NCBI GenBank assembly: GCA_021847425.1
Contig: JAJZRF010000015.1
Location: 1 to 51,916 of the forward strand
Length of the DNA stretch: 51,916 bases
Direction: 5' to 3'
Source of the DNA: Deltaproteobacteria bacterium
GTDB taxonomy: Bacteria > Desulfobacterota > Desulfobulbia > Desulfobulbales > Desulfurivibrionaceae
A model generated the notes under the pieces. The model was not told the DNA's origin, made no database searches, and was given only the letters and a program-made list of their open reading frames with translations. Of this stretch, positions 7,637 to 29,166 are shown in pieces. The first letter of the stretch is position 1, and every line of letters begins with the position of its first letter. The position numbers and the translations under genes were made by a program.

Positions 7637-7821
7637 TTTTATTGTTTTGATATATATTGTATTAATAGTGGTATATAGTAGAATAAAGGTGATATAATTC
7701 AATTATAATTTTGGTCAAGGACAGTTTTTGGGGAAATCCGAGAGCAAGGAGGGGAGCTGGCAGGGCATCAAGGGGATTTGTGGGGTTGAATGTTTTTTGG
7801 GGAAACAAAGGAGGAGAAACA

Positions 7822-8979
7822 ATGCATTACACAGAGAAAAAAATATCAGGAATTTTCACGGCACGGAAGATGTCGCTTGCCATGGCCGGACTGTTGCTCG
7901 GCACGGTTTGTCTGTTGCCCCGGGCGGGTATGGCTCAGGTTAAGGGGCAGTGCGCCAATTGCCACACCATGCATAACAGTCAGGACGGTGCGCCCATGAA
8001 CAGTGCGTTCGGCACGAACACCGCGGCCACCGTGTATCGCGCCCTGACGAGAGGCGACTGTGTCGGCTGTCACACCGGGACGACTGCAACCGATCTGAAC
8101 CTCAACAACATTCCCAAGGTGAATCATACAGTTGCGCCAACAGCGGGAACCTTGGCTGGCGGCAGTTTTTACTGGGTGGGGACCGGCGCTGTGGATGCCG
8201 ACGGGCATAACGTGGTGGGGATATCAAGCGCAGACGCAAAATTGGGCCTCACTCCGCCGGGAGGCACGGCCTTGGCATCACAGTTGACCTGCGCCGGCAC
8301 CACGGGCTGTCATGGTGATAGAACCGTGGCGGATCAGTATGCCTCGATCAGCGGTTCGCATCATGCCCCGCCGCAGAACGCCGGAGGCGTAACCGGCGCT
8401 GTTGACGGCACAACCTTGGCCAATAGTTACCGTTTTCTCAAGGGAGTCGAGGGCATTGAGTCTGCTGACTGGGAACTCCCGACTAACCTCACCGCTGGCA
8501 ATCATAACCAGTATTACGGGGTGGCCCGGACCACGGATGCTACTGTTACTGGTACCATCAGCTCCCTCTGCGGGCAATGCCATGGCGCCTTCCATGCCGC
8601 AGCTACTAGTTCGCCCTCCACTGGGGTCGGGATCAGTTATGCCAACAACATGACCTCCCCTTGGGTACGCCACCCCACCGACTTTGACATGAACACCGTG
8701 AAGGCCAAAGAATACGGTGCATACGGGGGCGGGGTGATCGGCACAGGCGGCGGCGCCTATCAGCCCAACACGCCTGTGGGAAGCAATAGCATCTCGGGGG
8801 TGAAAGCCACGGTCCTGACTGCTCCCGGCGACGCTATTGTCTTGTGCGTCTCCTGCCACCGGGCCCATGGCAGCGATAAGCCCGATATGTTGCGCTGGGA
8901 TTACACCACCATGGTTACCGGTGGGACGGTACAAAATACTACCGGCTGTTTTGCCTGCCATACCACTAAAGATACTTGA
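7822..8979 (+). CDS. OmcS-like hexaheme c-type cytochrome, candidate nanowire subunit (paralog 1)
   Basis: This encodes 385 aa from ATG 7822, 5 nt after AAAGGAGGAG; the open frame extends upstream but has no start with a ribosome site. The signal peptide is cleaved near GMA-QVKG. Heme sites: CANCH (44-48), CVGCH, CAGTTGCH (157-164, CX5CH spacing), CGQCH, CVSCH and CFACH at the C-terminus. Order and surroundings follow Geobacter OmcS as I remember it: CxxCHTMHNS at the mature N-terminus, a GHN motif, PPGGTxxxxQLxC before heme 3, SYRFL, CxxCHxxFH then (W)VRHP, CxSCHRAHxS with a following RWD/RFN, and a terminal CxxCH. OmcS forms extracellular filaments of stacked hemes; whether this protein polymerises is inference. 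It is the first gene after the sigma-54 promoter and is followed by a strong hairpin, so it may be the most abundant product. Confidence 0.88.
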   Translation: MHYTEKKISGIFTARKMSLAMAGLLLGTVCLLPRAGMAQVKGQCANCHTMHNSQDGAPMNSAFGTNTAATVYRALTRGDCVGCHTGTTATDLNLNNIPKVNHTVAPTAGTLAGGSFYWVGTGAVDADGHNVVGISSADAKLGLTPPGGTALASQLTCAGTTGCHGDRTVADQYASISGSHHAPPQNAGGVTGAVDGTTLANSYRFLKGVEGIESADWELPTNLTAGNHNQYYGVARTTDATVTGTISSLCGQCHGAFHAAATSSPSTGVGISYANNMTSPWVRHPTDFDMNTVKAKEYGAYGGGVIGTGGGAYQPNTPVGSNSISGVKATVLTAPGDAIVLCVSCHRAHGSDKPDMLRWDYTTMVTGGTVQNTTGCFACHTTKDT

Positions 8980-9021
8980 TCCATGGCATAAAGAGCTCGT
9001 TGTCAGGGTTGGGATTTGATG

Positions 9022-9066: not shown

Positions 9067-9154
9067 TGTGCCCAACCCGGCAGGAAGCCCTGCGGATTGG
9101 CGACTGCGGAAGGATTGACAGCCACATTAATTCCCCGGGGGGAGGTGAATTAAA

Positions 9155-10297
9155 ATGAGCCTGATGTGTCGCGCTGGATACATTCTCTTTTTTAGCGCCG
9201 TCCTAACTTGGGGTATGCAAACTCATCAGGCCTCGGCCAAGATGACCGGCCCTTGCTCCAACTGTCATACCATGCACAGCAGCCAGAATGGCGGCAGCAT
9301 GCAGTTTAACAACACGGCCAAGGTGGAGCGAAACCTGCTGCGGGGAGATTGCCTCGGTTGCCACGGGCAGGGAACCGCTCAGAAGATCGTCAACTTAAAC
9401 GGCAGCCAGATTCCTCAGGTCCTGCATTCCGACCCGAGCGGAGATCTGGCCGGAGGCAATTTTGCTTATATTACCGGCAGTAAAGGAACTGCCTCCGACA
9501 GCCATGGCCATAATGTGATTGATCTCGGCGCGGCATTTACAGAGAAAGTCTTGGTCAACATTCTGCCCGGCGGAATCAGGCAGTCGTTCCACGAAGATTA
9601 TATCGTAAACTCTTCAAATCTGACCTGTGCGGGGGTGAATGGATGCCATGGCTATCGGCTCACCGCTGGCACACCCACTGGTGTTGATGCAATGAAGGGT
9701 GCGCACCACAACAACGTGGACGGCCAGCTGCTGGTGGCCGACACCCCTGCAAACAGTTATCGCTTTCTTGTCGGGGTTAAAGGCTACGAGAACCAGACCG
9801 ACAAATGGCAAAACGTGAATGCCTCCAGCCACAACGAATATTACGGCGCCACTACCCCCATGACCTTGGGCTGCAGTGCCACCAGCTGTCATGGCAGCAT
9901 GGGTGTTTCTCCGCCAAACCACACGATCAGCGGATTTTGCGGCACCTGCCACGGCAATTTTCATACCCTCTCCGCAGGTGCCAGCGACGGCATCGGACCG
10001 GGCATAACCTCGCCGTTCATCCGGCACCCGAACGATATCGTGCTCCCGGCCTCCGGGGAATACAAGAATTACACAACCTACAGTGTCGAGGCTCCCATAG
10101 GCCGCACCACGGTACCAGCATCTGCCAGCAGCGTCGTTACCCCCGGCACCGATGTCGTGACCTGCCTCTCCTGTCATATGGCCCACGCCAGCCCGTATCC
10201 AGACATGCTGCGCTGGGATTACAGCAAGATGAATGCGCATCAAAGCGGTGATATAAACACGGGATGCTTTACCTGTCACACTGCCAAGGATACTTGA
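9155..10297 (+). CDS. OmcS-like heptaheme c-type cytochrome (paralog 2)
   Basis: This encodes 380 aa from ATG 9155, preceded by GGGAGGTGA. The signal peptide is cleaved near ASA-KM. Heme sites: CSNCH (34-38), CLGCH, CAGVNGCH (158-165, CX5CH), CSATSCH (240-246, CX4CH), CGTCH, CLSCH and CFTCH. It keeps the OmcS-like marks of paralog 1 (CHTMHSSQ, GHNV, LPGG, SYRFL, CHGNFH, IRHP, CLSCHMAHAS, LRWDYSK, CFTCHTAKDT). It has one extra heme site, the CX4CH, inserted before the fourth canonical position. It could be a second filament subunit or a cap/adaptor. It is separated from paralog 1 by 175 nt containing the hairpin, and is followed by a repeat. Confidence 0.85.
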   Translation: MSLMCRAGYILFFSAVLTWGMQTHQASAKMTGPCSNCHTMHSSQNGGSMQFNNTAKVERNLLRGDCLGCHGQGTAQKIVNLNGSQIPQVLHSDPSGDLAGGNFAYITGSKGTASDSHGHNVIDLGAAFTEKVLVNILPGGIRQSFHEDYIVNSSNLTCAGVNGCHGYRLTAGTPTGVDAMKGAHHNNVDGQLLVADTPANSYRFLVGVKGYENQTDKWQNVNASSHNEYYGATTPMTLGCSATSCHGSMGVSPPNHTISGFCGTCHGNFHTLSAGASDGIGPGITSPFIRHPNDIVLPASGEYKNYTTYSVEAPIGRTTVPASASSVVTPGTDVVTCLSCHMAHASPYPDMLRWDYSKMNAHQSGDINTGCFTCHTAKDT

Positions 10298-10350: not shown

Positions 10351-10417
10351 TAGGGATAATCGCTTTTTACTCATCTGCGAGATGACTGGAAAAAAACAGT
10401 GGCGGGAGGAAAAGAAC

Positions 10418-12175
10418 TTGAAACGCGTTTTTGGTAATCCACAGAGCGGCAACAGGCCATTGGCGCCGGCGAGTCTGTTGCAAGGCATCCTTGCCGCATG
10501 GTGTATTCTGGTTGGGCTTGGTGTCTTTGCTGCCCCGTCTGTAACTTGGGCCGCGTCGGCGGAGATAACCGTGATTGCTCCGCTTGATGGCGCTTGGGTG
10601 ACCGGCAAGGAGCTTTTTCTGGCCGGCTCCGTCAACGGGGCGGAGGTCAAGGGGGTTGCCATTGACGGCGTGAGCAATAAGGCGCCCGGCGGAGTCATGC
10701 CGGTGGAGGGGGGGGCCTTTGGTACGATGATTACCCTCAGGGAAGGGGAGAATGTCATCACCTTGAGTGCCGATAAGCTCCAGAAGAAGGTGAAGGTTTT
10801 TTATGGGCCGGCGCAAAAAAGTAAGGTCGCGCCCAAGGGTTACAAACGTTTTTATGTCCACGGCAATCCCGTGGCTCTGGACTGTAAGGAGTGCCACAAG
10901 CAGCGGCGCGGCCAGTATGATTTTAAAAAGATTGTGCCGAGCCGGGCCAATTGCACTACGGGGAAATGCCATGCCAATATGGGCAAGGCCGCCCATGTGC
11001 ACGGACCGGTGGGCGCCGGGGTCTGCATTTCCTGTCACAACCCGCACGGCTCCTTCAACCCCAGGGCCATGGAGCGAACCGGGCAGGATCTCTGTCTGGT
11101 CTGCCATCAGGCCAAGCAGCAGGAGTTCAATGACAGCGTTGTGCATGAACCGGTAAAGGACGGCTGTGTCGATTGTCATAATCCCCATGAATCCCCGATG
11201 CGTTTTCAGTTGCGCGGGAACGGCTCCAGCGTCAGCAGCCTTTGCTTCAACTGTCATGAGGCCGCCCTCTTTACCAAATCCCACCGGCATGGGCCTGTGG
11301 GCGCTGGGGATTGTATAGCCTGTCATCGGCCCCATGCCAGTAAGCATAAACACCTGCTGATCGCCTCTCCTGCAAAAGGAGAGCTTTGTTTTCGCTGCCA
11401 TCAGGACCGCAAGGATGAATTCAGCATGAAGTTCGTCCATAAACCGGTGAGTGAAAATTGCAACAATTGTCACGATCCGCACAGTTCCGACAACCAGTTT
11501 CAGCTGATCAAAAAAAGCAGCGAGCTTTGTGCCGGATGCCACCAGAAGCTGAACCCCGCTGTTTACAATGATATTAAAACCGCGGTTTATAAGCATGCAC
11601 CTGTTGACCAGGGAAAGTGTACGGCGTGTCACCGGGTTCACTCCTCCAATGAAAAATATCTGTTGAAAAACACCACGGCGAAACTGTGTTTTAGCTGTCA
11701 CGATGAATTAGGCGATAAAGTCGCGGGCAGCCGGTACAAGCATGGGCCGGTCCAGACCGGTGATTGCACGGCCTGCCATAAGGCGCATGGTTCCAAGTAC
11801 AGTCGCCTTCTTGTGCGTTATTATCCCGAGGAGTTCTATAAGGACTACAGCCCTGAAAATTATGATCTTTGTTTCGGCTGCCACAACAAGGAGATTGCCA
11901 AAAATAAATTCACCAGCACCCTGACCAATTTCCGGGATGGGGAATACAATCTGCATTTCTTCCATGTCAACATGAAGAAAGGTCGAAATTGTGTTGCCTG
12001 CCACGATCCGCATGCCAGCAGCCAGGCAAAACACATCCGCACGGAGGTTCCCTTCGGTTCCTGGTCATACCCTATTTCTTTCACCAAAACCGAAACCGGG
12101 GGAACGTGTGTGGTGGGGTGCCACGCCCCGAGATCTTATGACCGGAAGAATCCAAAAATTAAACCGAGCAGGTAG
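10418..12175 (+). CDS. 16-heme periplasmic cytochrome c with N-terminal beta domain
   Basis: Start TTG 10418 is chosen because GGGAGG (10404-10409) lies 8 nt upstream; the ATG at 10382 lacks a ribosome site. The product is 585 aa. A signal segment is at about residues 18-48 (LLQGILAAWCILVGLGVFAA). A cysteine-free beta domain follows (about 49-130, ITVIAPLDGAW..GVAIDGV..LREGENVITLSA). The rest is doubled-CXXCH repeat: 14 canonical motifs (CKECH, CISCH, CLVCH, CVDCH, CFNCH, CIACH, CFRCH, CNNCH, CAGCH, CTACH, CFSCH, CTACH, CFGCH, CVACH). CTTGKCH (CX4CH) and a terminal CVVGCH (CX3CH) bring the total to 16 possible hemes. Recurrent HxPVxxGxCxxCHxPH units indicate a wire-like heme chain. The architecture equals that of the decaheme protein at 3217-4395. 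It probably carries electrons across the periplasm to the outer-membrane barrel encoded next. Confidence 0.88.
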   Translation: MKRVFGNPQSGNRPLAPASLLQGILAAWCILVGLGVFAAPSVTWAASAEITVIAPLDGAWVTGKELFLAGSVNGAEVKGVAIDGVSNKAPGGVMPVEGGAFGTMITLREGENVITLSADKLQKKVKVFYGPAQKSKVAPKGYKRFYVHGNPVALDCKECHKQRRGQYDFKKIVPSRANCTTGKCHANMGKAAHVHGPVGAGVCISCHNPHGSFNPRAMERTGQDLCLVCHQAKQQEFNDSVVHEPVKDGCVDCHNPHESPMRFQLRGNGSSVSSLCFNCHEAALFTKSHRHGPVGAGDCIACHRPHASKHKHLLIASPAKGELCFRCHQDRKDEFSMKFVHKPVSENCNNCHDPHSSDNQFQLIKKSSELCAGCHQKLNPAVYNDIKTAVYKHAPVDQGKCTACHRVHSSNEKYLLKNTTAKLCFSCHDELGDKVAGSRYKHGPVQTGDCTACHKAHGSKYSRLLVRYYPEEFYKDYSPENYDLCFGCHNKEIAKNKFTSTLTNFRDGEYNLHFFHVNMKKGRNCVACHDPHASSQAKHIRTEVPFGSWSYPISFTKTETGGTCVVGCHAPRSYDRKNPKIKPSR

Positions 12176-12416: not shown

Positions 12417-14561
12417 ATGGCGGGTAGGGTATTGTGGGGTAATTTTGTTTCACGTGTAGTTCTGTCGGCCCTTGTCGTGCTGTTGGCGGCTCCCGGCAGT
12501 GCGGTTGCCGTGCAGTCTCTGACCGCCAGTTGGCTTCATGAGGATACAAAAACCAACCCCACGGTGGATGAATACCTAGCAAGTTATTCTCTTGACATCA
12601 AACAGGAACTCACCGAGGCCATGTCCCTCCAGGAGGCCTTTCGCTACAACCGGGATTGGCGGGGGGCCGAGGACAGGGAAGGCTTTGATCCGAGTATGCG
12701 GTTTGCGGTCAAGAACGACCTGTTCGTGTTTGACCTGTTTGGCTCGGCCAGTGAACAACGAGATTCCATTTTGACAAACCGCAGCCGGCGGAGTTGGGAA
12801 TCCACCTGGGCCAGCAACTGGCAGAATCGTTTCTGGCCGGCGTTGCGCGCTTCGTATGGCAGGGATTTCAGCAAGGATGACGCAAATCCTCATCTGGAAG
12901 ATAGCGATAATACCCGCGAGTCCGCTGGCGTGGATTGGGATGTCGAGCTGTTTAAAACCCATTATAATTTCAATCGTACCCATCAGAACGATAATGCGAC
13001 GTTAGGAGAAACCACTTCCACCAATCACTTCGGGCGGCTGGACAGTTCCGGCCGCTTCTTTGACAATCGGCTCAGTCTTGGTTTTTCCCAGCAGTATTCA
13101 ACAAGCCAGACGGAATCTTCCACGGCGGTGGGGATTGGGGGATTTGCCCTTGTAAAACAGAACATCGCCCAGGTGTTGACAGGACATGATCTCACCCCGC
13201 TCGTCACCGATTCTGGCGAACTGAGCACCAACAGCCTGATGTCCGACGGTGATGTTTCGACCGTGTCCGGAATATACACGGACGGTTTTGATAATCCGCC
13301 ACTGAATATCGCCATCAGGGTCGATCTGCGGGAGGTTAACCAGATTTTTCTGTACACCGATAAAAATATCGGCGTGGTGGTTGCCGGCTCTTTCGTCATG
13401 GACCTCTACGACAGCCTAAATGGCACGGATTATCAGCGCATCCAGCAGAACGTCCCTTTTGTTTATAATTCCGTGAAAAACCGTTTTGAGCTCACGTTGA
13501 ACAGCGTCACCTCCCGGTGGTTAAAGTTGGTAATTACCAACAGCCCCCTGCAGCGGGTGGATTTTACGGAAATAGAGGCGTATGACCAGGTCGTTTCCTC
13601 AGAGCCATTTGTGTCCAGAAGAGATAAAACATTAAGCAATATCAGTGATATGAATATGGGGTACAAATTTTCGTCGGCACTGGGCATGACGTACAATCTT
13701 TCTCTTGAAAATGGGAATTATTCTTCCGCCATCGACTATCGTCGGCAAAATCATATCGGCGAGGTGCGTTGGACCCCGGGGGAATATCTTACCTCCGCCT
13801 TGGGCTTCAGTCAGAACATGGAAGCGATTGAAGGTTTGCCGGAGACCTTGAACAGGGCTTACACACTGCGCGTGGGTTCTCCGCCGGTCCCCAGCGTGGA
13901 TATGAATCTTGGCCTGTCCAAAACGGAGCGGTATCAAGATAAGAGTTTATTTTCCACCTCCTATGAGACGGGGCTTTACACCTCCGCCGCGCTTTATCCC
14001 GATCTTAATGCAAATCTTGATCTCACCTGCGGGCAAACGAAATATGAAAGTGCCACTTCGCTGGTCACACTGTATGGGCCGTTGTATGCGAATACAGGAA
14101 CAACGACCAGAACGTATGGCTCGCGCCTGACCATGACCGCCAGGCTCATTCCACGCTTGACTGCGGATTTGATTACCGATTATCAGGACATCCATGGTTC
14201 TGTCGCCACAGAAACAATGGATAACAAGCTCACCCTGAATTGGCGCGTGTCCGATATCCTTTCTCTTTTGACAACCGTCGGGCAAAACTGGCAAAACTGG
14301 CAAAGCGCGGGAGAGAACCTCCTGATGCAAACCACACTGGCGCCAACGGATAATACGCAATTTGCGGTAAGCTACTATGTTGCCACCGGCCTGAATGCCG
14401 CCAGCAGATATACCCTGAGCGGAAGTTGGGCCATTGGCCCTCATCTGACCCTGCAGGGGAATGTTTTATATGTGGAGCGGCAGCAGGCAAGTGCTGCTTA
14501 TGGGTTGTCAAGCGATGAGACGGACTGGCAGGCGAACACGCAACTGATAGCCAGATTTTGA
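12417..14561 (+). CDS. Outer-membrane beta-barrel protein with an inserted discoidin-like domain
   Basis: This encodes 714 aa with a signal peptide (VVLSALVVLLAAPGSAVAV). Long runs of alternating polar/hydrophobic residues with aromatic girdle residues fill residues about 50-240 and 405-714, and the protein ends in aromatic F (LIARF), the outer-membrane barrel signature recognised by BAM. Between the two barrel parts, residues about 255-390 look like an F5/8-type C (discoidin) beta-sandwich (IAIRVDLREVNQIFLYTD, YDSLNGTDYQRI, SRWLKLVITNS, FTEIEAYD), presumably in a loop or plug. No heme motif. By position it may be the outer-membrane conduit or the exit pore for the OmcS-like proteins. It does not look to me like MtrB/PioB (no N-terminal CXXC), so it may be a separate porin family. 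Confidence 0.8.
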   Translation: MAGRVLWGNFVSRVVLSALVVLLAAPGSAVAVQSLTASWLHEDTKTNPTVDEYLASYSLDIKQELTEAMSLQEAFRYNRDWRGAEDREGFDPSMRFAVKNDLFVFDLFGSASEQRDSILTNRSRRSWESTWASNWQNRFWPALRASYGRDFSKDDANPHLEDSDNTRESAGVDWDVELFKTHYNFNRTHQNDNATLGETTSTNHFGRLDSSGRFFDNRLSLGFSQQYSTSQTESSTAVGIGGFALVKQNIAQVLTGHDLTPLVTDSGELSTNSLMSDGDVSTVSGIYTDGFDNPPLNIAIRVDLREVNQIFLYTDKNIGVVVAGSFVMDLYDSLNGTDYQRIQQNVPFVYNSVKNRFELTLNSVTSRWLKLVITNSPLQRVDFTEIEAYDQVVSSEPFVSRRDKTLSNISDMNMGYKFSSALGMTYNLSLENGNYSSAIDYRRQNHIGEVRWTPGEYLTSALGFSQNMEAIEGLPETLNRAYTLRVGSPPVPSVDMNLGLSKTERYQDKSLFSTSYETGLYTSAALYPDLNANLDLTCGQTKYESATSLVTLYGPLYANTGTTTRTYGSRLTMTARLIPRLTADLITDYQDIHGSVATETMDNKLTLNWRVSDILSLLTTVGQNWQNWQSAGENLLMQTTLAPTDNTQFAVSYYVATGLNAASRYTLSGSWAIGPHLTLQGNVLYVERQQASAAYGLSSDETDWQANTQLIARF

Positions 14562-14574: not shown

Positions 14575-15240
14575 ATGAACGTGGAGGAGAAAGGGCCAGT
14601 GGGGAACAAAGTGTGGCTGTCATCGGCATTGCTTGGACGGTCCGGATCATTTTTCGGATTGGAAAAGGTTTTTTTCTGCACGCTGCTGCTGGGAGTTTTT
14701 CTCGGCTTGACAGGCTGCAGCCTGCCATTTGTCGGGAAATCAAAGGCCTTTGTCCGGGAGAATGTGGACTTCGGGTTCGTTAAAAAAATTGCTGTTTTGC
14801 CAGTGGAAAACAACAGTAAGGACGAATTTGCGCCAGAACTTGTGAGGGATGTCATCATCACTCGCATCCTTGCCATGAAATTGTTTGATGTGACAGATAA
14901 AGGGCTGGTGGACAGCTTTTTAAAGGAAGAGGCCATCGACCCGGGCAAGCCTCTCGATACAGCAACGATAAAGAGGCTGGGACAGAAACTCAACGTGCAG
15001 TGCGTGTTGCTCACGACCTTGGACATTGCGGCGGACAGCCGCCAAGGGAGCATGAGCTACCCGGAAATTTCCGTTACCTTGCGGTTGTTGGAAGTGGAGA
15101 CGGGTCTGGTTATCTGGCAGGCTGGCGGCCATCAAAGTGGTGATTCCATTTGGCGCCGGCTGTTTGGTCTGGCTGGACGGGACAAGTATCAGGTAACGGT
15201 ATCGTTGGTGGAAGATATTCTTCGGACGATCCCGCGCTGA
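14575..15240 (+). CDS. CsgG/PelC/LpoB-fold lipoprotein 1
   Basis: This encodes 221 aa. Lipobox LTGC ends at C48, so the mature protein is a lipoprotein. The start is uncertain: ATG 14575 is weakly preceded, GTG 14599 follows GGAGGAG, and either keeps the lipobox. The mature domain begins KKIAVLPVENNSKDEFAPELVRDVI, then ITRILAMKLFDVTDKGLVDSFL and KRLGQKLNVQCVLLTTLDI, ending TLRLLEVETGLVIWQAGG. This alternation is the anticodon-binding-like fold shared by CsgG, PelC, LpoB and GNA1162-type proteins, which sit at the outer membrane, often as rings. It is 13 nt after the barrel gene, so an outer-membrane complex with that barrel is likely. It is the first of three such proteins here. Confidence 0.75.
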   Translation: MNVEEKGPVGNKVWLSSALLGRSGSFFGLEKVFFCTLLLGVFLGLTGCSLPFVGKSKAFVRENVDFGFVKKIAVLPVENNSKDEFAPELVRDVIITRILAMKLFDVTDKGLVDSFLKEEAIDPGKPLDTATIKRLGQKLNVQCVLLTTLDIAADSRQGSMSYPEISVTLRLLEVETGLVIWQAGGHQSGDSIWRRLFGLAGRDKYQVTVSLVEDILRTIPR

Positions 15241-15245: not shown

Positions 15246-15478
15246 GGAACTACTCAGGTGGATAGACAGAAGGTTGAAGGTTTTTAGGAAAAAATACAGA
15301 TATACTTCGGTCTTCAGCCTTTAGTCTAATTCTCAGGTTGGTAGACTGAAGGCTATTAGGCTGGAGGGCTGGAGATATTTTTACAATGTGTGGAGATTAC
15401 GGCCCATTGCCCATGATCTTGTCTGTTCGCTTTTGCAAACAGCCTTCAGCCTACAGCCTAAACAACCTGAGCAGTTAC
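15246..15478. repeat. Full copy of the interspersed repeat with terminal inverted ends, upstream of the four-helix-bundle gene
   Basis: The left end GGAACTACTCAGGT (15246-15259) and right end ACCTGAGCAGTTAC (15465-15478) are inverted copies matching at 12 of 14 positions. Inside are the usual blocks (AGAAGGTTGAAGG, ATACTTCGGTCTTCAGCC, AACAGCCTTCAGCCTACAGC) around an unrelated core at about 15380-15435. The right end lies 5 nt before the ATG of the four-helix-bundle gene, so the repeat must supply that gene's 5' region. Confidence 0.85.
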
Positions 15479-15483
15479 AAATA

Positions 15484-15840
15484 ATGCGTGATCATACAAA
15501 ACTCCGTGCTTTTGAGATGGCTGACGAGGTAGTGGTATTGGTATATCAGGCGACCGCAAGGTTTCCGAGAGAAGAGTTGTATGGACTGACTTCTCAAATG
15601 AGGCGGGCAGCGGTTTCGGTTCCTTCTAACATCGTGGAGGGTTGCGCACGTGACAGCCAGGCAGATTATCTTCGCTTCCTCCATATGGCCTTCGGGTCAC
15701 TGAGGGAATTGCATTATCAAATAGGTTTGTCAAAGCGCTTGGGGTTCTTATGCAACCAGGATGCGGCACTGATTGAACCAAAGATGGTAGAAACCGAGAA
15801 GGTCCTGAATGGCTTGATCCGAGCGTTGCGTGATGAGTGA
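15484..15840 (+). CDS. Four-helix-bundle protein, S23/23S rRNA intervening-sequence family
   Basis: This encodes 118 aa starting at ATG 15484; the frame is open upstream to 15388 but that part is repeat sequence. The family signature is clear: FPREELYGLTSQMRRAAVSV then PSNIVEGCARDS and YLRFLHMAFGSLRELHYQI, four amphipathic helices. Members are often encoded in 23S rRNA intervening sequences or beside mobile and diversity-generating elements, and their cellular role is not settled; related Avd proteins bind nucleic acid and a reverse transcriptase. Here the gene sits between a full repeat (15246-15478) and a repeat arm (15841-15879), splitting the three CsgG/PelC-like genes. No strong ribosome site is visible. 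I take it as cargo or helper of the repeat family and unrelated to electron transfer. Confidence 0.9.
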   Translation: MRDHTKLRAFEMADEVVVLVYQATARFPREELYGLTSQMRRAAVSVPSNIVEGCARDSQADYLRFLHMAFGSLRELHYQIGLSKRLGFLCNQDAALIEPKMVETEKVLNGLIRALRDE

Positions 15841-17405: not shown

Positions 17406-17489
17406 CATGGCAGCCCTGATGTGCCGACGGGGATTTTATTTCCCCCACTCTTTTACCGGTGAGCGATGTGCTGTGGAAAAAAGAAGAAA

Positions 17490-21656: not shown

Positions 21657-22828
21657 TGCGGCGTCTGTTTATCACTCTGGGAATATTCAGCCTGCTCTCC
21701 GGGCTCGCTGCTTCTGTCGTCCTGGCCGGAGATGTGTGCTACACGTGTCATGACAGGAAGAATTTTACGGGGAAGTCCATCCATCCCCCTGTGGCGCAAG
21801 GGAAATGCGGCGATTGTCATAATCCGCATGTTGCCAAATATCCCGGGTTGCTGGTGGAAGAAGGTTCCAAGCTCTGTTACACATGCCACCAGCGGGCGAA
21901 ACTCGAGTTTGCCAAAGGGGTGGTGCACCAACCGGTTCGAGATGGAAAATGTCTGAGCTGCCATGCTCCGCATGCTTCCGGCCATAATGGCTTGCTCAGG
22001 AAAAACCTGGCGGAGACCTGTTTCGGCTGTCATCAGGAGTTGGCAAAGCCCCAGGCCGTGACCCATAAACCCTTTGCCCAAGGGCAGTGTAATGTCTGCC
22101 ACCAGTCCCACCAGGCAAAATACGGTCAGCTTCTCAAGATGGAAGCCGGGGCCTTGTGTCTGTCCTGCCATCCGCAGGCGCAAAACAGTGCCGGGCATCG
22201 TGGCTTTCCTGGCAAGATCAGTGGCTGCCTTACCTGTCATAATCCCCATGGCAGCTCACGCAAGGGTCTTATCCGCCAGTATGAGCATGCGCCCTTTGCC
22301 GAAAAAAAATGCGACACGTGTCACGGGCATCAGCAAAGTCCCGGAAGCGAAATCTGCCTGCGGTGTCATGCCGGCGTGAAAACCAGCATGATGGCCCCGC
22401 ATAATCATATGCTGGCCGGGGCGGAAAACGGTTGCATCCTCTGTCACAGCCCCCATGCCGCGGATGATAAAAACATGTTGAGAAACTCGGGCAACAAGGT
22501 GTGTCAACAATGCCATGAAGACACTTTTGCCCGTTATGCACAGAGCAAGTATCGCCACCCCAGCGTCAAGTCTTGCAGTGACTGTCATGAGGTGCATGGC
22601 TCCGACCGGCTGGCGATGCTTCGGGATGATGGCAACAAGGTGTGCACACGTTGCCATCTGACCCAGGGCAAGTTCAGTCATCCTGTGGGCGAGAAGGTGA
22701 TTGACCCGCGCACCGGGCAGGAGATGACCTGTGTGACCTGTCATGATCCCATGGGCTCGGCGAATAAGTATAATCTTGTCTTGAGCGGGAAAAAAGACTT
22801 ATGCGTTCAATGTCATCGCAGTTATTAA
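21656..22828 (+). CDS. 16-heme periplasmic cytochrome c
   Basis: This encodes 390 aa from ATG 21656, within the TGATG overlap with the 26-heme gene and preceded by GGGAGG. The signal peptide is cleaved near VLA-GDV. Sixteen CXXCH motifs run from CYTCH (residue 28) to CVQCH near the C-terminus, with one motif per about 23 residues. The order of paired motifs, e.g. CGDCHNPH..LCYTCH, matches the 26-heme protein, which suggests duplication. It would be a companion electron carrier. The stop is followed within 8 nt by the triple repeat. Confidence 0.9.
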   Translation: MRRLFITLGIFSLLSGLAASVVLAGDVCYTCHDRKNFTGKSIHPPVAQGKCGDCHNPHVAKYPGLLVEEGSKLCYTCHQRAKLEFAKGVVHQPVRDGKCLSCHAPHASGHNGLLRKNLAETCFGCHQELAKPQAVTHKPFAQGQCNVCHQSHQAKYGQLLKMEAGALCLSCHPQAQNSAGHRGFPGKISGCLTCHNPHGSSRKGLIRQYEHAPFAEKKCDTCHGHQQSPGSEICLRCHAGVKTSMMAPHNHMLAGAENGCILCHSPHAADDKNMLRNSGNKVCQQCHEDTFARYAQSKYRHPSVKSCSDCHEVHGSDRLAMLRDDGNKVCTRCHLTQGKFSHPVGEKVIDPRTGQEMTCVTCHDPMGSANKYNLVLSGKKDLCVQCHRSY

Positions 22829-23126: not shown

Positions 23127-23152
23127 CATTAACACATCGCATGGGAGAGAGT

Positions 23153-24043
23153 ATGCTCCGGAAAAAACCAAGATACTTTGTCGGTTGGTTGCTGTGCTTC
23201 GGACTATTTTTCTCCGCCGCGTCCGGAGCATGGGCGGTTGAATTGCAATCCCCCTGGAAATTTGTTTTTAGCCTCCAGGGGCCGGGCAGAGGCATGGCCC
23301 TGCCCGTTGCCCTCTATGTCGATAAGGAAAAAGAACGCTATTACGTGGTGGACAGCACCGGCAACAGAATCCTCTCCTTTGCCGAAGACGGCAAGTTCTT
23401 GCAGGATTTTACCGCCGAGAGCAGTCTGGAGAAACCATACGACATGGCGCGCTTGAAAGACGGGTCGCTGCTGGTCGTGGAAAAGGGGCGCAACAGCCTG
23501 ACCAAGGTGGATCTGAAAAACAAGAAAACCGATCCCGTTGTTATAACGTACCAGGGGCAGGACGTTTTTGTGGACCGTCTCGAGGTTGCGGGCGGCAAGG
23601 TATACGTTCTTGATCGTGCATCAGGCCGGATTTTGCAGCTCGATGAAGCATTGAAGGTGACAAAAAGTTATGCAATGCCTGCCAATACAGGCTGGCTTGC
23701 CGATTTCAAGGTGGTGGACAAGAAGATCTGGGCTCTGGATCAGAAGAAAAAACAGATCTATTCCTATGATGAAAATGGTCGCACAACCCCGCCGATACAG
23801 CTGGCCGGGCTTTCTTTCCCGGTGTCCCTGGCCGTTGACCAGGCAGGGACTTTTTATGTCCTTGACCGGCACCGCGATGCGGTTGTGGTTTACGGACGAA
23901 ACGGCGAGTTTAAATACAGGTTTCTAACCAAGGGGCATGGCCGGGAAAACCTGTATTTTCCCAAAGAACTCCTTTTCGATTACCAGGGGCGTCTTTGCGT
24001 GGTGGACGAGGGAAACAGCAGGGTCATGGTTTTCAAGCGATAG
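23153..24043 (+). CDS. Secreted NHL-repeat beta-propeller protein
   Basis: This encodes 296 aa from ATG 23153, with GGGAG 6 nt upstream; ATG 23141 is the alternative. The signal peptide (FVGWLLCFGLFFSAASGAWA) is cleaved before VELQ. NHL-type strands: MALPVALYVDKEKERYYVVD, YDMARLKDGSLLVVEKGRNS, WLADFKVVDKKIWALDQKK, FPVSLAVDQAGTFYVLDRHR, YFPKELLFDYQGRLCVVDEG. This amounts to a six-bladed propeller without insertions. It starts 324 nt after the 16-heme gene, across the repeat, and ends 7 nt before the third OmcS-like gene. In Geobacter, as I recall, an NHL gene also lies beside omcS. A role in filament biogenesis or anchoring is inference. Confidence 0.82.
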   Translation: MLRKKPRYFVGWLLCFGLFFSAASGAWAVELQSPWKFVFSLQGPGRGMALPVALYVDKEKERYYVVDSTGNRILSFAEDGKFLQDFTAESSLEKPYDMARLKDGSLLVVEKGRNSLTKVDLKNKKTDPVVITYQGQDVFVDRLEVAGGKVYVLDRASGRILQLDEALKVTKSYAMPANTGWLADFKVVDKKIWALDQKKKQIYSYDENGRTTPPIQLAGLSFPVSLAVDQAGTFYVLDRHRDAVVVYGRNGEFKYRFLTKGHGRENLYFPKELLFDYQGRLCVVDEGNSRVMVFKR

Positions 24044-24050: not shown

Positions 24051-25145
24051 ATGATGCGGCGCCAGGCAGTTGGGGTTGGACTCTTTTTAGCGATGTTTGC
24101 ATGTCCGGGCATATGTGCGGCCAGGGTGACCGGGTTGTGCGTCAATTGTCACACCATGCATAACAGCCAGGGCGGCAGCCCCATGGCCTATACCGTCAGC
24201 AGTACCGGAGCTAAGACCTACGGCGGCCAGCTGAATGCGGGGCTGCTCAATACCGATTGTGTCGGCTGCCATCAGGGCACCAATTTTGCCGGTTCGATCC
24301 CTTTTGTCCTTGATACCGGTTCGCCCAACTATGGAACCACCGGCACCGAGGCGGGGACAACCACCCTGGCCGGGGGCAATTTTTACTGGGTCTGCCAGGG
24401 GAATGATAGAGCCGGGCATAATGTTTCCGGGATTACGTTGGTGGATGCAACCCTCGGCGTAATTCCGCCGGGTGGTACGGCCATGGCAGGCCAGCTCACC
24501 TGCGCCGGCACCCTGGGTTGCCATGGCAGCTCTTCGGTCGCCATGCCGACCCAGGCGGTTATGGGGGGCCATCACAGCAAGGACATGACCGTTTGGCAGG
24601 ATGGCACTTCCGTGGCGAAGAGCTACCGGTTTCTAAACGGCATCCAGGGACTGGAGGACAGCCTCTATGAATTGCAGCCAACGGCGAGCAGGCACAACAA
24701 GTATTACGGGAAAAACCGCATTTCGGAGACCGATACCGCCGCAGGCACCATCAGCAGCCTCTGCGCCCGATGTCATGGTTCTTTTCATAACGGCAGCGGC
24801 AATATTGCGGCCGGTTCTTTCGGCGCCGGGGTCTGGCTCAGGCATCCGGTCGATTTTGACATGAGCAATGCGGTTTCGAGTACGGAATACACCACCTATA
24901 ACAATGGGACCGGCTCGGCCAATCCCTACAGCGTCATCGCGCCGGTGGCGACCAACAGTACCACGGCGGTGGTGAATTCCACCGTGGATATTGCGACGCA
25001 TTCCAATAATGCCATCGTCATGTGCCTCTCCTGCCACCGGGCCCATGGCACCCCCAATGATGCAATATTGCGCTGGAATTATAAACAATGGCCGCAAGCG
25101 GGCGGCTACAATGGGTGCGCGGTATGTCATACTACAAAAAATTGA
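24051..25145 (+). CDS. OmcS-like hexaheme c-type cytochrome (paralog 3)
   Basis: This encodes 364 aa from ATG 24051, preceded by AGGGGCC, 7 nt after the NHL stop. A second ATG follows at once (24054). Heme sites: CVNCH (30-34), CVGCH, CAGTLGCH (151-158, CX5CH), CARCH, CLSCH and CAVCH near the C-terminus. OmcS-like landmarks: CHTMHNSQGG, AGHNVSG, PPGGTAMAGQLTC, SYRFLNG, CHGSFHNG, WLRHPVDFDM, CLSCHRAHGT, LRWNYKQ. It is the closest of the three to OmcS in length and heme number (OmcS mature form about 407 aa, six hemes, from memory). Adjacent genes on both sides (NHL, octaheme) look like a filament-gene unit of its own. Confidence 0.88.
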   Translation: MMRRQAVGVGLFLAMFACPGICAARVTGLCVNCHTMHNSQGGSPMAYTVSSTGAKTYGGQLNAGLLNTDCVGCHQGTNFAGSIPFVLDTGSPNYGTTGTEAGTTTLAGGNFYWVCQGNDRAGHNVSGITLVDATLGVIPPGGTAMAGQLTCAGTLGCHGSSSVAMPTQAVMGGHHSKDMTVWQDGTSVAKSYRFLNGIQGLEDSLYELQPTASRHNKYYGKNRISETDTAAGTISSLCARCHGSFHNGSGNIAAGSFGAGVWLRHPVDFDMSNAVSSTEYTTYNNGTGSANPYSVIAPVATNSTTAVVNSTVDIATHSNNAIVMCLSCHRAHGTPNDAILRWNYKQWPQAGGYNGCAVCHTTKN

Positions 25146-26434
25146 GTCGAAAGAGCGCACTGGGGGCCGGGCTCTTCTGCCTGCTCCTGCCTGCCGTTGC
25201 CCTGGCCGGAGGGTATCTGCTTTCGGCCCACGGCTCCACCACCGCCGGGGTCGCCCGCCCGGCAATGACCAGCGCCGGATACGGCCAGGGCAACTGCGCC
25301 CATTGCCATGAGATGCATGCCAGCCTTGGCGGGGTCGAGCCTGCGCCCGCAGGAGGGGCGCCAAGTCCCTATGCGGTCTTTGCCCAGAATTTCGACACGA
25401 CATTCACCGTCAATCCCTACGGCCAGGGGAGCGATTTCTGCTTCTATTGCCACAACAGCACAGGCTCGGTCCAGCAGGTGACAAACCAAGACTACAGCGC
25501 AACCTTCGGCAACGGCGACAGCACCGGACCCCAGTCGATTATGGCGGCCTTCAACCAAGCTTCCTATCACAATCTCGGCGACATTAAAACGTTTGTCACC
25601 AACAACTCCAGCACATATTCCTGGTTCAGCAGCAGCTACAGCAACCCCTGCAACGGTTGCCACAACCCGCATCTGGCCAAGCGCAACTGGTATTCCGGCC
25701 TCAGCGGATATCCGTTGAATGCCGCCATTTCCAAACCGAGCAGTCACTTCAGCCTCTGGGGCGAGACCCAGCTCATGTCGGCCTACACGAATTCCTATGA
25801 CGCGCCCTATACCACCTATCAATCAACCTATTCCACGAGCTACCGGGAACCGGCCGGGGTGGGCGTGGCCAACGGCTCCAAGACCCCGGACTATCCGGGA
25901 TTCTGCACCGACTGTCATACCAGTACGGCCACCATTTACAGCACAACTCTGGGCCGGAACCTCAAGATGATAAACTGGACAAGCGCGGGAGACATACATG
26001 GCGGATTTGCGCGGTATTACAGTACGATAAGCAATAGAGACCCCTATGCCCACGATGCGGCAACAGCGAGTAATTTTGTCCTTTCCTGTCTGGATTGTCA
26101 CGAGCCCCACGGCTCTCCGAACATCATGCTCCTGCGGCGCAGGATAAACGGCGAGAACCTGGAAGGGAACATCACCACCACCAATGTCATGGGCTATGTA
26201 TGTCGGCGCTGCCATCTGGATGATAAGGGCGCAGCGGCCGGCACCAATACACTCAATAAATGGCAATACGTGCACCACTTGGCAAGCTATCATCCCTATA
26301 CCCCAATTCAATGCGGTTTTTGCCATGGAAGCGGCGGGCCAACTCCGCCCCCAATCCCTTGCGGCAACTGTCATGGGCATGGCATGACGGACAGCTGGGC
26401 TGGAAGCAGAGCGACGGGGAACAAAGCTTTTTAA
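25124..26434 (+). CDS. Octaheme c-type cytochrome
   Basis: This encodes 436 aa from ATG 25124, overlapping the end of paralog 3 by 22 nt, so it is translationally coupled. The signal peptide (SALGAGLFCLLLPAVALAGG) is normal. Eight CXXCH motifs: CAHCHEMH, CFYCH, CNGCHNPH, CTDCH, CLDCHEPHG, CRRCH, CGFCH and CGNCH. Long Gly/Ser/Tyr-rich spacers, for example between residues about 140 and 250, resemble exported surface cytochromes more than the compact periplasmic ones. It may be a surface or terminal element associated with the OmcS-like subunit. It is not recognisably an OmcS paralog. Confidence 0.85.
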   Translation: MSYYKKLSRKSALGAGLFCLLLPAVALAGGYLLSAHGSTTAGVARPAMTSAGYGQGNCAHCHEMHASLGGVEPAPAGGAPSPYAVFAQNFDTTFTVNPYGQGSDFCFYCHNSTGSVQQVTNQDYSATFGNGDSTGPQSIMAAFNQASYHNLGDIKTFVTNNSSTYSWFSSSYSNPCNGCHNPHLAKRNWYSGLSGYPLNAAISKPSSHFSLWGETQLMSAYTNSYDAPYTTYQSTYSTSYREPAGVGVANGSKTPDYPGFCTDCHTSTATIYSTTLGRNLKMINWTSAGDIHGGFARYYSTISNRDPYAHDAATASNFVLSCLDCHEPHGSPNIMLLRRRINGENLEGNITTTNVMGYVCRRCHLDDKGAAAGTNTLNKWQYVHHLASYHPYTPIQCGFCHGSGGPTPPPIPCGNCHGHGMTDSWAGSRATGNKAF

Positions 26435-26451
26435 TCTTACGGTGGAAAACC

Positions 26452-27918
26452 ATGGCTTCATACGGGTCGGAAAACAGCAATGATACGGGATCAGTGCCCT
26501 GTCGGCCGAAATGGCAAAACACCATTGTCCTCCTGCTGTTGTCCCTGTTGCTCAGCTCCTGCGCCGGTACCGAGGGCAAGCGTCCGAGCTCCCTTGCCCC
26601 GGTGAGGGCTCCTGGTGCCAACGAAGCGTTGCTCTCCGTCTTTCTGCATCTGGCCAAGCCTGCTTCCGTCGGACTCTGGATGGAGGTGAATTCCGCGGCC
26701 CTGGTGGGAGAAAACACGGTTATTCCCCTGGACATGGAGAGAACCCCGTTTGCCGCCGGGGAAATCATGGGCGGGCAGCGTTTTGTCGCCCGAGGGGTTG
26801 TGGCGCCTGGGCGTTACAGGGCGTTGCGCCTGACCATTAACAAGGCGGCCTTGGTGCGGCAGAGCGACAAACTGTTTCTTTCCGTGCCTGAACCGGTGGT
26901 GGAGCTTCCCTTGCCCACCGATTTTCGTCTGGAGGCTGGAGTAAGCCGCTCCCTTTTTTTGGTCTGGGATGAGGAGGCTTCCGTGAGGAACAGCGCCTTT
27001 TTTGTTCCCAGCCTGGCGGTCATACCGGAGCAGCTGCCCCTGCTTGCCGATCTGGCTTATGTGAGCTGTCCGGACATTGATACGGTGTATCTGGTTCGGA
27101 CGGACAACAACCGGGTCTGCGGCTCCTTGGCCATAAGCGGCAAACCAACCTATATGGCCTATGATCCGGGACGCAAGCGTTTGTATGTGTTGGCCACGGA
27201 GAGTGCCGCCATCTTCGTGGTGGACGCCGCCACCAACAGGATTATTGACCGCATCAAGATTCCCATGACCGTCAACCCGTCTTATTTTCTGACGAATGAC
27301 GGGAAATGGGGATATGTCCTTGATCAGGACGAGGATTCCCTGCTCAAAATCGATCTGCTTCAAGGCAATTTGGACAGGCGCATCCGTTTGGGCGACAAGC
27401 CGCGTTTTTTGCTCTGGGTGCCTGCGCTTGCGCAATTGGCCATTTCTTCGGGGTTGTCGCGGACGGTTTATCTGCTTGACCCGGAAACCCTGACCACCAG
27501 GGGCACTGTGTTGGTGGGCAATGGGGCGGACGGCTTGCTTGCCACGGACAATTATTTGTATGTGGCGGAAAGTTCGTCGAACACCGTGGGCATTAATGAT
27601 TTGCGCAGCGGGCAGCTCATTAAAAGGGTCAATGTCGGCTTCATGCCCAGGCGTCTGGTTCAGAGCGACAGCCGGATATACATAAGCAACTTTTCGGATA
27701 ACACGGTTTCGGTGCTTGCCGTCCAGCAGCAGGCGGTGCTTCGGGATATCCGGGTGGGAGAGATGCCTCTGGAAATGGCGGTTTCCGCCAACCACAAATG
27801 GGTTTATGTTGCGGAACAGGGCACGGGAAAGCTTGCTGTTATAGATCAGACGACAAACCGGGTTGTACAGCATGTTGAACTGGGAGCAAAGCCGCAGCAT
27901 CTCCTTGTTGTGCCGTAA
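26452..27918 (+). CDS. YVTN-type beta-propeller lipoprotein
   Basis: This encodes 488 aa from ATG 26452 (GGTGG 8 nt upstream). Lipobox-like SSCAG follows a hydrophobic segment (IVLLLLSLLLSSCA), so it is probably lipid-anchored. Residues about 45-200 form a DUF4382-like beta domain (FLHLAKPASVGLWMEVNSAAL, GRYRALRLTINKAAL). Residues about 210-488 hold YVTN/NHL repeats (AYDPGRKRLYVLATESAAIF, LATDNYLYVAESSSNTVG, MAVSANHKWVYVAEQGTGK), consistent with a seven-bladed propeller. It starts 17 nt after the octaheme gene. It may anchor cytochromes or filaments at the outer membrane; no enzyme motif is visible. Confidence 0.78.
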   Translation: MASYGSENSNDTGSVPCRPKWQNTIVLLLLSLLLSSCAGTEGKRPSSLAPVRAPGANEALLSVFLHLAKPASVGLWMEVNSAALVGENTVIPLDMERTPFAAGEIMGGQRFVARGVVAPGRYRALRLTINKAALVRQSDKLFLSVPEPVVELPLPTDFRLEAGVSRSLFLVWDEEASVRNSAFFVPSLAVIPEQLPLLADLAYVSCPDIDTVYLVRTDNNRVCGSLAISGKPTYMAYDPGRKRLYVLATESAAIFVVDAATNRIIDRIKIPMTVNPSYFLTNDGKWGYVLDQDEDSLLKIDLLQGNLDRRIRLGDKPRFLLWVPALAQLAISSGLSRTVYLLDPETLTTRGTVLVGNGADGLLATDNYLYVAESSSNTVGINDLRSGQLIKRVNVGFMPRRLVQSDSRIYISNFSDNTVSVLAVQQQAVLRDIRVGEMPLEMAVSANHKWVYVAEQGTGKLAVIDQTTNRVVQHVELGAKPQHLLVVP

Positions 27919-27957
27919 TTCCCGTTACAATTTCCGCGTATACGAAAAACGGAACCG

Positions 27958-29166
27958 ATGAAAAAAATCTTGGAAAATTATCTGAGGCCGCGCAGCTTCT
28001 TTGCGGGCGCATTGGTCCTGGCCCTCTTTTTGGCCATTTATGGTTGGAGCATGGCCGATAACGTACCTGCCCCCGAGCAGTGCTGCGAGTGTCACCGGCA
28101 GGTGTGCGAGGATACGGCGGACAAGCGCTATGTGCATGCCCCGTTCCGAGAGAGACAATGTGCCCTGTGTCATATCGCCCCTTCCGGAACGGATCGGATT
28201 GCTATTGCCAAAAACGGCCAGAGCCAGGTGCAATGGCTGACCGAGAGCTCTCCACGGCAGGAGATAGAGTCCTGGTTTTCCATCCCGCCGGTCCTGGCAG
28301 GCAAGAAGATCATTCTTCAGGCGGAAGGGCTTGGCAGGAAAATGGTTCGGATGGAGGTGCAGTTGCCTAACTTTTTAGAGGCGGAACAGCTGGGCGCTGT
28401 TTCCAGACCACCTGAAATTTCAGGGCTTGGCGTGGATGAGGTCAAGCAGGGTGTTTTGCTGACAGCGCGGGTTATCTGGAAGACCGAAAGGATTACTGAC
28501 TCGACCGTGTTGTACGGGGAAAACGCACCAGCGGGCAAAAGTATTGTCGACCCCCGGCTGACCAAGGAGCATGAAGTGCTGTTGACGGATCTGCAGCCGG
28601 GAAGAAACTACAGTTTTGTCGCGGTTTCGCAGGATATTTTTGGAAATAAAACGGTTTCTCCGGCAAAGACTTTTTCTACCCGCACATTCTTTAGCCGGCC
28701 TCGCGTGGAACAAGCAAAGACCACTGAAAAGGTCACGGTCTCCGGGAAATACTTCCGGGTTGATAATCGGTTTTTCGCAAAATTTGTCGCCAATCAACCG
28801 ATCCGCGTGAGGCTTGGAACCCTTGCAGGACAGATGATTAACGTTTCCACCAAAGCAGCATCCAGCGGACGGACCGGCAAGCTGCCTCCGGGACATCTGC
28901 CGTTGACGGATTCCCGTTTTCTCAATACCGGCGTTTGTTACAGCTGCCATCCGCAAACAAAGGGAGTGTTGTCTCATCCCGTGGATGTGCTGCCCAAGCG
29001 GGGAATGATAATTGATAACCGTGCGTATAAACTCTCTGGAGATGGCCGGATTACCTGTATGTCCTGCCATATGCCCCACGCCTCGGATAATGAGTACAGA
29101 GTGATTCTGAGCGATAAGAAGAAGTTATGCCTTGGCTGTCATAAAAATTTCGGGGGTGGGCTCTAA
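27958..29166 (+). CDS. Pentaheme cytochrome with central fibronectin-III-like domain
   Basis: This encodes 402 aa, start ATG 27958, with an uncleaved or poorly cleaved N-terminal membrane segment (FFAGALVLALFLAIYGWS), so it may be inner-membrane anchored. Two CXXCH motifs sit near the N-terminus (CCECH, CALCH), and three at the C-terminus (CYSCH, CMSCH, CLGCH). In between, at about residues 140-245, is a fibronectin-III/purple-acid-phosphatase-type beta-sandwich (GVLLTARVIWKTERITDSTV..YSFVAVSQDIFGN). Separating heme pairs by a beta module is unusual. By its anchor it may take electrons from the quinol-oxidising side and pass them to the periplasmic polyheme proteins. It is the last gene of the locus. 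Confidence 0.8.
   Translation: MKKILENYLRPRSFFAGALVLALFLAIYGWSMADNVPAPEQCCECHRQVCEDTADKRYVHAPFRERQCALCHIAPSGTDRIAIAKNGQSQVQWLTESSPRQEIESWFSIPPVLAGKKIILQAEGLGRKMVRMEVQLPNFLEAEQLGAVSRPPEISGLGVDEVKQGVLLTARVIWKTERITDSTVLYGENAPAGKSIVDPRLTKEHEVLLTDLQPGRNYSFVAVSQDIFGNKTVSPAKTFSTRTFFSRPRVEQAKTTEKVTVSGKYFRVDNRFFAKFVANQPIRVRLGTLAGQMINVSTKAASSGRTGKLPPGHLPLTDSRFLNTGVCYSCHPQTKGVLSHPVDVLPKRGMIIDNRAYKLSGDGRITCMSCHMPHASDNEYRVILSDKKKLCLGCHKNFGGGL

Follow-up and report, generated by a model that had tools for sequence, protein, structure and literature searches.

The osc (omcS companion) cluster of Geobacter sulfurreducens comprises the genes GSU2504-GSU2493 (Shen et al. 2025, Cell Chem Biol 32:239-254, via PMC13194489 and PMC12977616). 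The eight-gene block GSU2500-GSU2493 is located 3' of the OmcS-like gene GSU2501 in all genomes having it and has been tied, with reference to Shen et al. (2025), to the maturation and secretion of nanowires (PMC12977616). OscC, OscI and OscJ are the products of GSU2501, GSU2495 and GSU2494, and OscH has been assigned to folding, OscE, OscF and OscG to secretion and OscD to morphology (PMC13194489). Moreover, the oet cluster of syntrophic sulfate reducers, in which OetABI occurs together with OmcX/OmcS/Apc2a, has been read as an electron conduit (Murali et al. 2023, PMC10553843). Here, we describe a locus on a stretch of 51,916 nucleotides from contig JAJZRF010000015.1 of a Deltaproteobacteria bacterium (hereafter the window), which we consider to be a cluster of the osc kind by content, not by exact gene order. 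Judged from its sequence, the locus is a member of a deep second branch of osc clusters (type B) with its own OmcS subfamily. In G. sulfurreducens, OscH is reportedly a prolyl isomerase, whilst OscE, OscF and OscG are said to be channel-like and OscD propeller-like. A first-pass annotation of the window had named no described export machine of this make-up, which does not hold because the osc cluster GSU2501-GSU2493 has already been published. What is added here to the known osc cluster are the type B branch, an apparent split of OscG, the pairing of subunits with machinery and a link to the cytochrome DA_402 of Desulfurivibrio alkaliphilus. A literature search, with most subscription papers and supplements outside its reach, retrieved neither the type B split nor a link between DA_402 and osc-type clusters, which is not to say that these are unpublished.

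The plus strand of the window carries 16 open reading frames (ORFs) between positions 7,822 and 29,166, which make up a set of cytochrome, barrel, PelC-like, isomerase and propeller genes and one apparently unrelated IVP-like gene (Table 1). ORF, haem-motif and domain searches agreed that all genes named in the first-pass annotation are present on one strand. Some of the overlaps that it describes arise from over-long ORF starts (S1 starts at 7822 and the isomerase probably at 18068). Haem sites were counted as CXXCH motifs, and CX5CH sites were read by eye from the sequences and the alignment. The source genome is 2.7 Mb in size, consists of 121 contigs and is 81% complete. With the osc cluster, the window shares OmcS-family genes (S1-S3), a propeller, a barrel, PelC-like proteins, an isomerase, 26- and 16-haem cytochromes and an NHL protein, as judged via Geobacter-type clusters (type A), for G. 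sulfurreducens was absent from the genome samples and was represented by relatives whose OmcS homologues reach 73% identity. Type A profiles match the propeller (4e-49), the barrel (4e-29), OscF (3e-30) and the isomerase (5e-30) of the window. From the barrel to the NHL gene, the window is collinear with the osc order, apart from the OscG split. It differs from osc in that OscG apparently corresponds to two genes, the first of which has an Ig-like tail, and in that OscD has moved downstream and lies 3' of S3 rather than 5' of the barrel. Furthermore, the window has extra 16-, 8- and 5-haem genes, an OmcS-like family mostly with a CX5CH third site and an OscH that belongs to a deep separate clade.

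The type B branch was delineated by a search with the protein encoded by 15885-17405, which matched 18 of 28 near genomes, including the window's own; the surroundings were fetched in 13 of them (fetched loci carry the prefix L and genomes the prefix G, G000 being the window's own genome). According to the OscF-like gene (81-84% identity), the closest named loci are those of Desulfobulbaceae bacterium UBA2273, Desulfurivibrio sp. S2_56, two Proteobacteria bacterium genomes and Deltaproteobacteria bacterium HGW-Deltaproteobacteria-3. The barrel, the OscF-like gene, both OscG-like parts and an OmcS-like gene are present in all 13 fetched loci. Twelve of the loci also have the isomerase and 11 the 26-haem gene; in L016 and L019, contig ends cut the missing genes off. 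In L024, the OscG-like and the isomerase genes are each distributed over two ORFs, and the upstream 16-haem, the octahaem and the pentahaem genes vary among the 13 loci. One genome, G028, holds two such clusters (L094 and L095). A search with the OmcS sequence gave matches in 23 of 393 genomes of the phylum at E 1e-10. Further clusters were fetched from these genomes and from weakly matching genomes of the window's order, 16 of which (type A) had a row in the OscH tree. The order OmcS-like, propeller, barrel, PelC-like, a protein of 370-490 aa, isomerase, 26-haem, 16-haem and NHL was found in 15 of these 16 clusters; in the exception, L086, the OscG-like gene is absent in place. This order corresponds one for one to GSU2501-GSU2493, the 26-haem gene being at the GSU2495/OscI position. 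Moreover, each of the 16 clusters has a 26-CXXCH, a 16-CXXCH and an NHL gene.

Positions 42-196 of the type A OscG profile align to the product of 15885-17405 (E 7e-20) and positions 217-368 to that of 17466-18107 (E 1e-15). The two PelC-like halves of OscG appear to be separate genes in type B, so that both types would hold three PelC-like domains. The assignment was made by best match and gene order only, because the PelC-like profiles cross-match (type A OscF with the C-terminal OscG half at 4e-16, and window 17466-18107 with type A OscF at 3e-12). Alternatively, 17466-18107 may be a duplicated OscF. If OscG is truly split in type B, this would mark the boundary of two separable PelC-like domains and be useful for structure work.

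In a quick OscH tree, one branch with a Shimodaira-Hasegawa-like approximate likelihood ratio support of 100 parts 13 type B rows, including the window, from 16 type A rows. The OmcS-family tree has the same split, with 30 type B and 37 type A rows (the overlap of L096 and L097 makes one of the latter genes count twice) and supports of 98 and 95. The types of the machinery and of the OmcS-like genes agree in all 29 clusters with an OscH row. The type A set was not a random sample, with 8 of the 16 clusters chosen via likeness to OmcS and the rest via likeness to the machinery; due to this mixed route, the type match is not fixed by selection. Both types occur in the genus of the window, where type A is represented by G008 and G010, and four genomes (G034, G067, G087 and G104) combine a fetched type A cluster with strong type B barrel matches on other contigs. 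The occurrence of both types in one genus and in single genomes favours transfer as units over plain descent. With the types paired, one can directly test whether an osc machine is specific for its own subunit; the four genomes, for example, appear to carry both types. A smaller third relative, here called type C, was observed near type A genes at L087:10419-19335 and L105:13274-19998. These stretches encode an OmcS-like protein (in L087), a 9-haem protein, a shorter barrel-like protein recognised by eye, two PelC-like proteins and a 42-haem protein, and there was no isomerase among their profile matches. The type C row of L087 is placed on a long branch outside both types in the OmcS-family tree.

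The barrel gene also travels with the OmcS-like genes across genomes. Among 146 genomes sampled from the order, 54 had strong matches to both, one to the barrel only, 10 to OmcS-like genes only and 81 to neither (Fisher test 1.8e-28, a value that ignores relatedness); the OscF-like gene gave the same four numbers. At least 48 of the 55 genomes with a barrel have it on one contig with an OmcS-like gene. In the phylum sample of 393 genomes, the numbers were 57 with both, none with the barrel only, nine with OmcS-like genes only and 327 with neither, and outside the window's order 44, 0 and 8 for the first three categories. Three of the nine (G246, G383 and G507) have a type A barrel that was too divergent for that search. 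The single system seen by the first-pass annotation is borne out insofar as the locus behaves as a co-inherited unit around OmcS-family cytochromes, and the outcome that would have spoken against it, barrel and CsgG-like genes occurring apart from the OmcS-like genes, was not observed for the barrel and OscF-like genes. In the window's genus, G011 has an OmcS-like gene (C27:6133-7245, E 2e-112) and no barrel match.

A profile of the S1-S3 family built from 20 OmcS-like proteins had OmcS (6ef8) as its only strong match in the PDB (E 3.5e-25; next chain 0.053), and the printed local alignment spans the first five haem sites. Phmmer searches of the PDB with single OmcS-like proteins gave no match at E 0.001 and one irrelevant match at E 10, so that the profile was needed to reach OmcS. 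Each of six haem sites retains its cysteine pair and histidine throughout the 20-row alignment; in most type B members, the third site has the form CX5CH. The motif CXXCHxxH is present at the first site in all 30 type B rows, in 31 of the 37 type A rows and in the single type C row. The last histidine of this motif aligns with OmcS residue 16, and we take His16, i.e. the first-site histidine, to be the inter-subunit haem ligand of OmcS. In the OmcS filament, one subunit supplies a histidine that ligates a haem of the following subunit (PMC9473688). The six type A members without the first-haem histidine are all located 3' of a type A block (L096:4491-5876, L096:6073-7410, L099:17074-18408, L100:17768-19201, L101:3224-4444 and L106:16122-17198) and could be caps or non-polymerising forms. 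In the OmcS-family tree, S3 belongs to a clade formed by ten downstream copies of several families. A further OmcS-like gene is present elsewhere in the window's genome (G000:C40:140-1189, E 2e-81).

Type B clusters can also be linked to a cultured strain. In D. alkaliphilus, the most prominent multihaem cytochrome, a homologue of OmcS, is up more than 100-fold during sulfide oxidation with iron oxide (PMC12545173). DA_402 was found to be the most highly transcribed extracellular multihaem cytochrome, with DA_756 and DA_765 as up-regulated relatives, and a figure legend reports it with a predicted filament oligomer (PMC12545173). L095 contains exact matches to the two primers published for DA_402, at positions 998 and 1081 within the OmcS-like gene L095:13414-14706. 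This gene adjoins the barrel in a type B cluster, and its genome, G028, is also matched by the single recA primer that was tested. The DA_402 gene clusters with S2 of the window in the OmcS-family tree (support 99; 41.7% identity over 410 aligned positions). DA_402 resembles the window in belonging to the S2 clade and in being surrounded by a type B cluster; passages on the cytochrome in PMC12545173 treat it without its surrounding cluster, and the word 'barrel' is absent from the main text. From their position, we infer that DA_756 and DA_765, which are nine numbers apart, are the two OmcS-like genes flanking the other type B block of G028. The link connects the induction of DA_402 on iron oxide to a complete candidate machine that can be tested gene by gene in a cultured strain, and it should, like the type B branch itself, be useful to specialists.

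The cluster is preceded by a candidate sigma-54 promoter at 7620-7635, which was called with the -24/-12 consensus. It is the sole mismatch-free motif among 56 loose matches in the window, a number at chance level (59 expected), and at the background rate (0.011 strict matches per kb on each strand), chance alone would place about one in a window of this length. The sigma-54 promoter of the first-pass annotation is an exact motif; the site is credible because of its position and conservation. Strict matches occur 5' of the first OmcS-like gene in six of eight clusters examined, including the window, L019 has a looser match and L021 none. The NtrC-type response regulator encoded by 6028-7413 is a probable activator of the cluster. 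Relatives of it (65-87% identity) are located 5' of the first OmcS-like gene in L013, L016, L017 and L019, and an NtrC-type regulator gene precedes the cluster in L094 as well.

The AlphaFold model of the barrel (mean predicted local distance difference test 78) contains 28 long strands by manual count, 11 before and 17 after an inserted beta domain at about residues 240-395, and its predicted template modelling (TM) score of 0.56 leaves closure uncertain. Searches against Pfam gave no family for the barrel at E 0.1 and no name for the inserted domain, for which a discoidin-like fold is a guess. A sequence profile of the barrel found no credible relative in the PDB, and MtrB was without a sequence match. 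Among the 50 listed of 875 Foldseek matches of the model, MtrB (6r2q_B) had the best TM-score (0.40/0.44; rank 8 by E-value), and the listed matches were mostly TonB-dependent receptors with TM-scores of about 0.20-0.35, all of them low. The MtrB barrel has 26 strands. MtrB, the porin of MtrCAB, and the window barrel are both large barrels; the latter differs by the lack of sequence similarity, by its approximately 28 strands and by the inserted domain. A candidate fusion of barrel and PelC-like protein in L098 (816 aa) was rejected, for the barrel is in another frame, within L098:4292-7366.

Of the three proteins described as CsgG/PelC/LpoB-fold in the first-pass annotation, the PelC/LpoB likeness was retained and membership of CsgG rejected: Pfam CsgG had no matches in the genome, and none at E up to 0.1 in the window proteins. 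OscF (14575-15240) passes the Pfam LpoB cut-off (E 4.6e-6); its best PDB chains are 5t11 and 5t10 (E 7e-4 to 9e-4), which are titled 'uncharacterized protein' and which we take to be PelC. The PelC chain 9h80_C was matched by 17466-18107 at E 1.6e-4 and by OscF at 0.06. The match of 15885-17405 to an LpoB chain is weak (E 0.023), and its PelC/LpoB call leans more on its relatives. Thus, OscF and, more weakly, both OscG parts resemble the outer-membrane lipoproteins PelC and LpoB, but the substrate in the window is presumably a protein and not a polysaccharide. A simple lipobox pattern was not found in the 26-, 16-, 16-, 8- and 5-haem proteins; among 13 OscF-like proteins of type B, this pattern recognises just six. 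The 26- and 16-haem proteins occur as a single 42-haem protein of 1010-1049 aa at L026:13359-16388, L087:10419-13541 and L105:13274-16420. These forms in three clusters of two kinds suggest that the 26- and 16-haem proteins form one unit.

We consider it quite probable that the type B osc cluster is an envelope machine, presumably under sigma-54 control, for folding, exporting, anchoring and feeding OmcS-family filaments. The subunits would be exported by Sec and equipped with haem, the OscH-like isomerase would keep them folded yet unpolymerised, and the outer-membrane barrel together with rings of PelC-like domains would pass or dock them. The 26- and 16-haem proteins may bring electrons from the periplasm to the filament base, and the two propellers could cap or organise the filaments. 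We infer each role as well as polymerisation, export direction and the order of events, or take them from the osc literature; directly supported are the correspondence to the osc block, gene family for gene family, the homology of S1-S3 to OmcS, co-inheritance, the matching of types and the conservation of the promoter. Several observations weigh against the machine. Resemblance to OmcS is weak, with 31-33% identity in type B relatives, and a search of the window's genome with the OmcS sequence alone gave no match at E 1e-10. No structure backs the polymerisation of S1-S3, a haem-free AlphaFold model of S3 (20 sequences) having a mean predicted local distance difference test of 43, and the physiological importance of OmcS filaments is disputed (PMC13194489; PMC11077965). 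Moreover, 10 of the 64 OmcS-like genomes of the order are without a strong barrel match, so some subunits may act without the machine or the genomes may be incomplete; G116 has the barrel and no OmcS-like match, and the kinship of genomes inflates the significance of the Fisher values. Finally, the approximately 28 strands of the barrel and its best listed TM-score, that with MtrB, suit an electron conduit as well as an exporter.

In such a porin-cytochrome conduit, comparable to OetABI, the barrel would hold a polyhaem cytochrome as MtrB holds MtrA, export nothing and pass electrons to extracellular OmcS-like proteins. This explanation, which is partly compatible with an export machine, is possible, if somewhat doubtful. 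A related cluster was read as OetABI with OmcS/OmcX nearby (Murali et al. 2023, PMC10553843). Like the window, the oet cluster has a barrel and multihaem proteins beside OmcS-like genes and was reported in Desulfobulbia too (PMC10553843). By its published description, it differs in having an extracellular cytochrome lipoprotein, none being recognised in the window by the simple lipobox pattern. The barrel and the PelC-like proteins may form the export pore that the first-pass annotation had inferred, but a related barrel has also been published as the OetABI conduit porin. The conduit would also fit the strand number and TM-score of the barrel and the 26- and 16-haem genes, which adjoin the machinery and appear as one 42-haem protein in L026, L087 and L105. 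However, three PelC-like domains and a dedicated isomerase would be unexpected in a conduit, MtrB has no sequence match to the barrel, and published osc work gives OscE, OscF and OscG to secretion (PMC13194489). The missing lipobox in the five accessory cytochromes is a weak argument in the same direction, given the sensitivity of the pattern. Both functions might be united in a basal body, whose barrel and PelC rings would export and then anchor a filament wired directly to the 26- and 16-haem proteins. Types A and B have the barrel, PelC-like, isomerase, 26-haem and 16-haem genes in the same order, which would agree with it, as would the strong co-occurrence of barrel and OmcS-like genes; we know of no precedent for export plus conduction by one pore and regard it as rather unlikely. 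It is improbable that S1-S3 are monomeric outer-surface reductases, which the cluster would export without forming a filament. Among the related hexahaem cytochromes of G. sulfurreducens, only OmcS is known as a wire (PMC12977616), and the six type A members lacking the first-haem histidine imply that not every member need polymerise, but this histidine is kept in all 30 type B rows and DA_402, a member of the S2 clade, was reported with a predicted filament oligomer (PMC12545173). Extending the envelope machine to its family, one may speculate, with rather little confidence, that there are at least two anciently separated nanowire-secretion systems (A, B and perhaps an isomerase-less third) with locked machine-subunit pairs moving between species as units. 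The two PelC-like domains of OscG would be apart in type B, and the barrel and PelC rings would form a basal body that extrudes, anchors and electrically charges the wire.

Table 1 Features of the osc-type locus in the window
Position	Strand	Feature	Basis or remark
6028..7413	+	NtrC-type response regulator (receiver, sigma-54 AAA+, Fis helix-turn-helix)	Pfam
7620..7635	+	Candidate sigma-54 -24/-12 promoter TGGCACATTCCTTGCT	motif TGGCAC-N5-TTGCT
7822..8979	+	S1, OmcS-family hexahaem cytochrome, type B	5 CXXCH + 1 CX5CH = 6; ribosome-binding site at 7822
9155..10297	+	S2, OmcS-family cytochrome, seven possible haem sites	5 CXXCH + CX5CH + CX3CH
10382..12175	+	16-haem doubled-CXXCH cytochrome	14 CXXCH + 2 longer sites; variable extra
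12417..14561	+	Predicted outer-membrane beta-barrel with inserted beta domain, OscE position	AlphaFold, profile matches
14575..15240	+	PelC/LpoB-like lipoprotein, OscF counterpart	Pfam LpoB, profiles, lipobox LTGC
15388..15840	+	23S rRNA-IVP-like protein gene	PF05635 E 5e-31
15885..17405	+	N-terminal PelC/LpoB-like domain and FlgD-like Ig domain; apparent counterpart of the N-terminal half of OscG	
17466..18107	+	PelC-like lipoprotein; best match is the C-terminal half of OscG	
17954..19738	+	PpiC-type prolyl isomerase/chaperone, OscH counterpart	likely start 18068; PF13145 E 5e-21
19710..21656	+	26-haem cytochrome, OscI counterpart	
21623..22828	+	16-haem cytochrome, OscJ counterpart	
23141..24043	+	NHL beta-propeller, GSU2493 position	PF01436 E 1e-13
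24051..25145	+	S3, OmcS-family hexahaem cytochrome	5 CXXCH + CX5CH = 6
25088..26434	+	Octahaem cytochrome with MtrC/F-domain-like match	8 sites; present in L094 too
26260..27918	+	YncE/cytochrome-D1-like propeller, OscD counterpart, relocated	lipoprotein-like signal LSSC
27958..29166	+	Pentahaem cytochrome, weak fibronectin-III/phosphatase-N-like middle	5 sites

The position of the LSSC signal indicates that the true start of the relocated propeller is inside its ORF. At the N-terminus of the 10382-12175 cytochrome, there is a sub-threshold match to Glucodextran_B, which is Ig-like. The IVP-like gene is probably an unrelated insertion between the OscF-like and OscG-like genes, and the flanking genes leave no room for it in L013 and L015. 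On the minus strand, the divergent region 1812-5829 encodes a thioredoxin-like/TPR protein, a 10-haem cytochrome and an NHL propeller, which are possible partners in maturation or electron feed. A relative of the 10-haem gene is also located beyond the regulator in L016, L017 and L019. Directly after the cluster, 29327-31276 encodes a HAMP-GGDEF protein. The cluster in L018 is followed by one with 84% identity, and GGDEF matches were also found beside the type A clusters L088 and L093.

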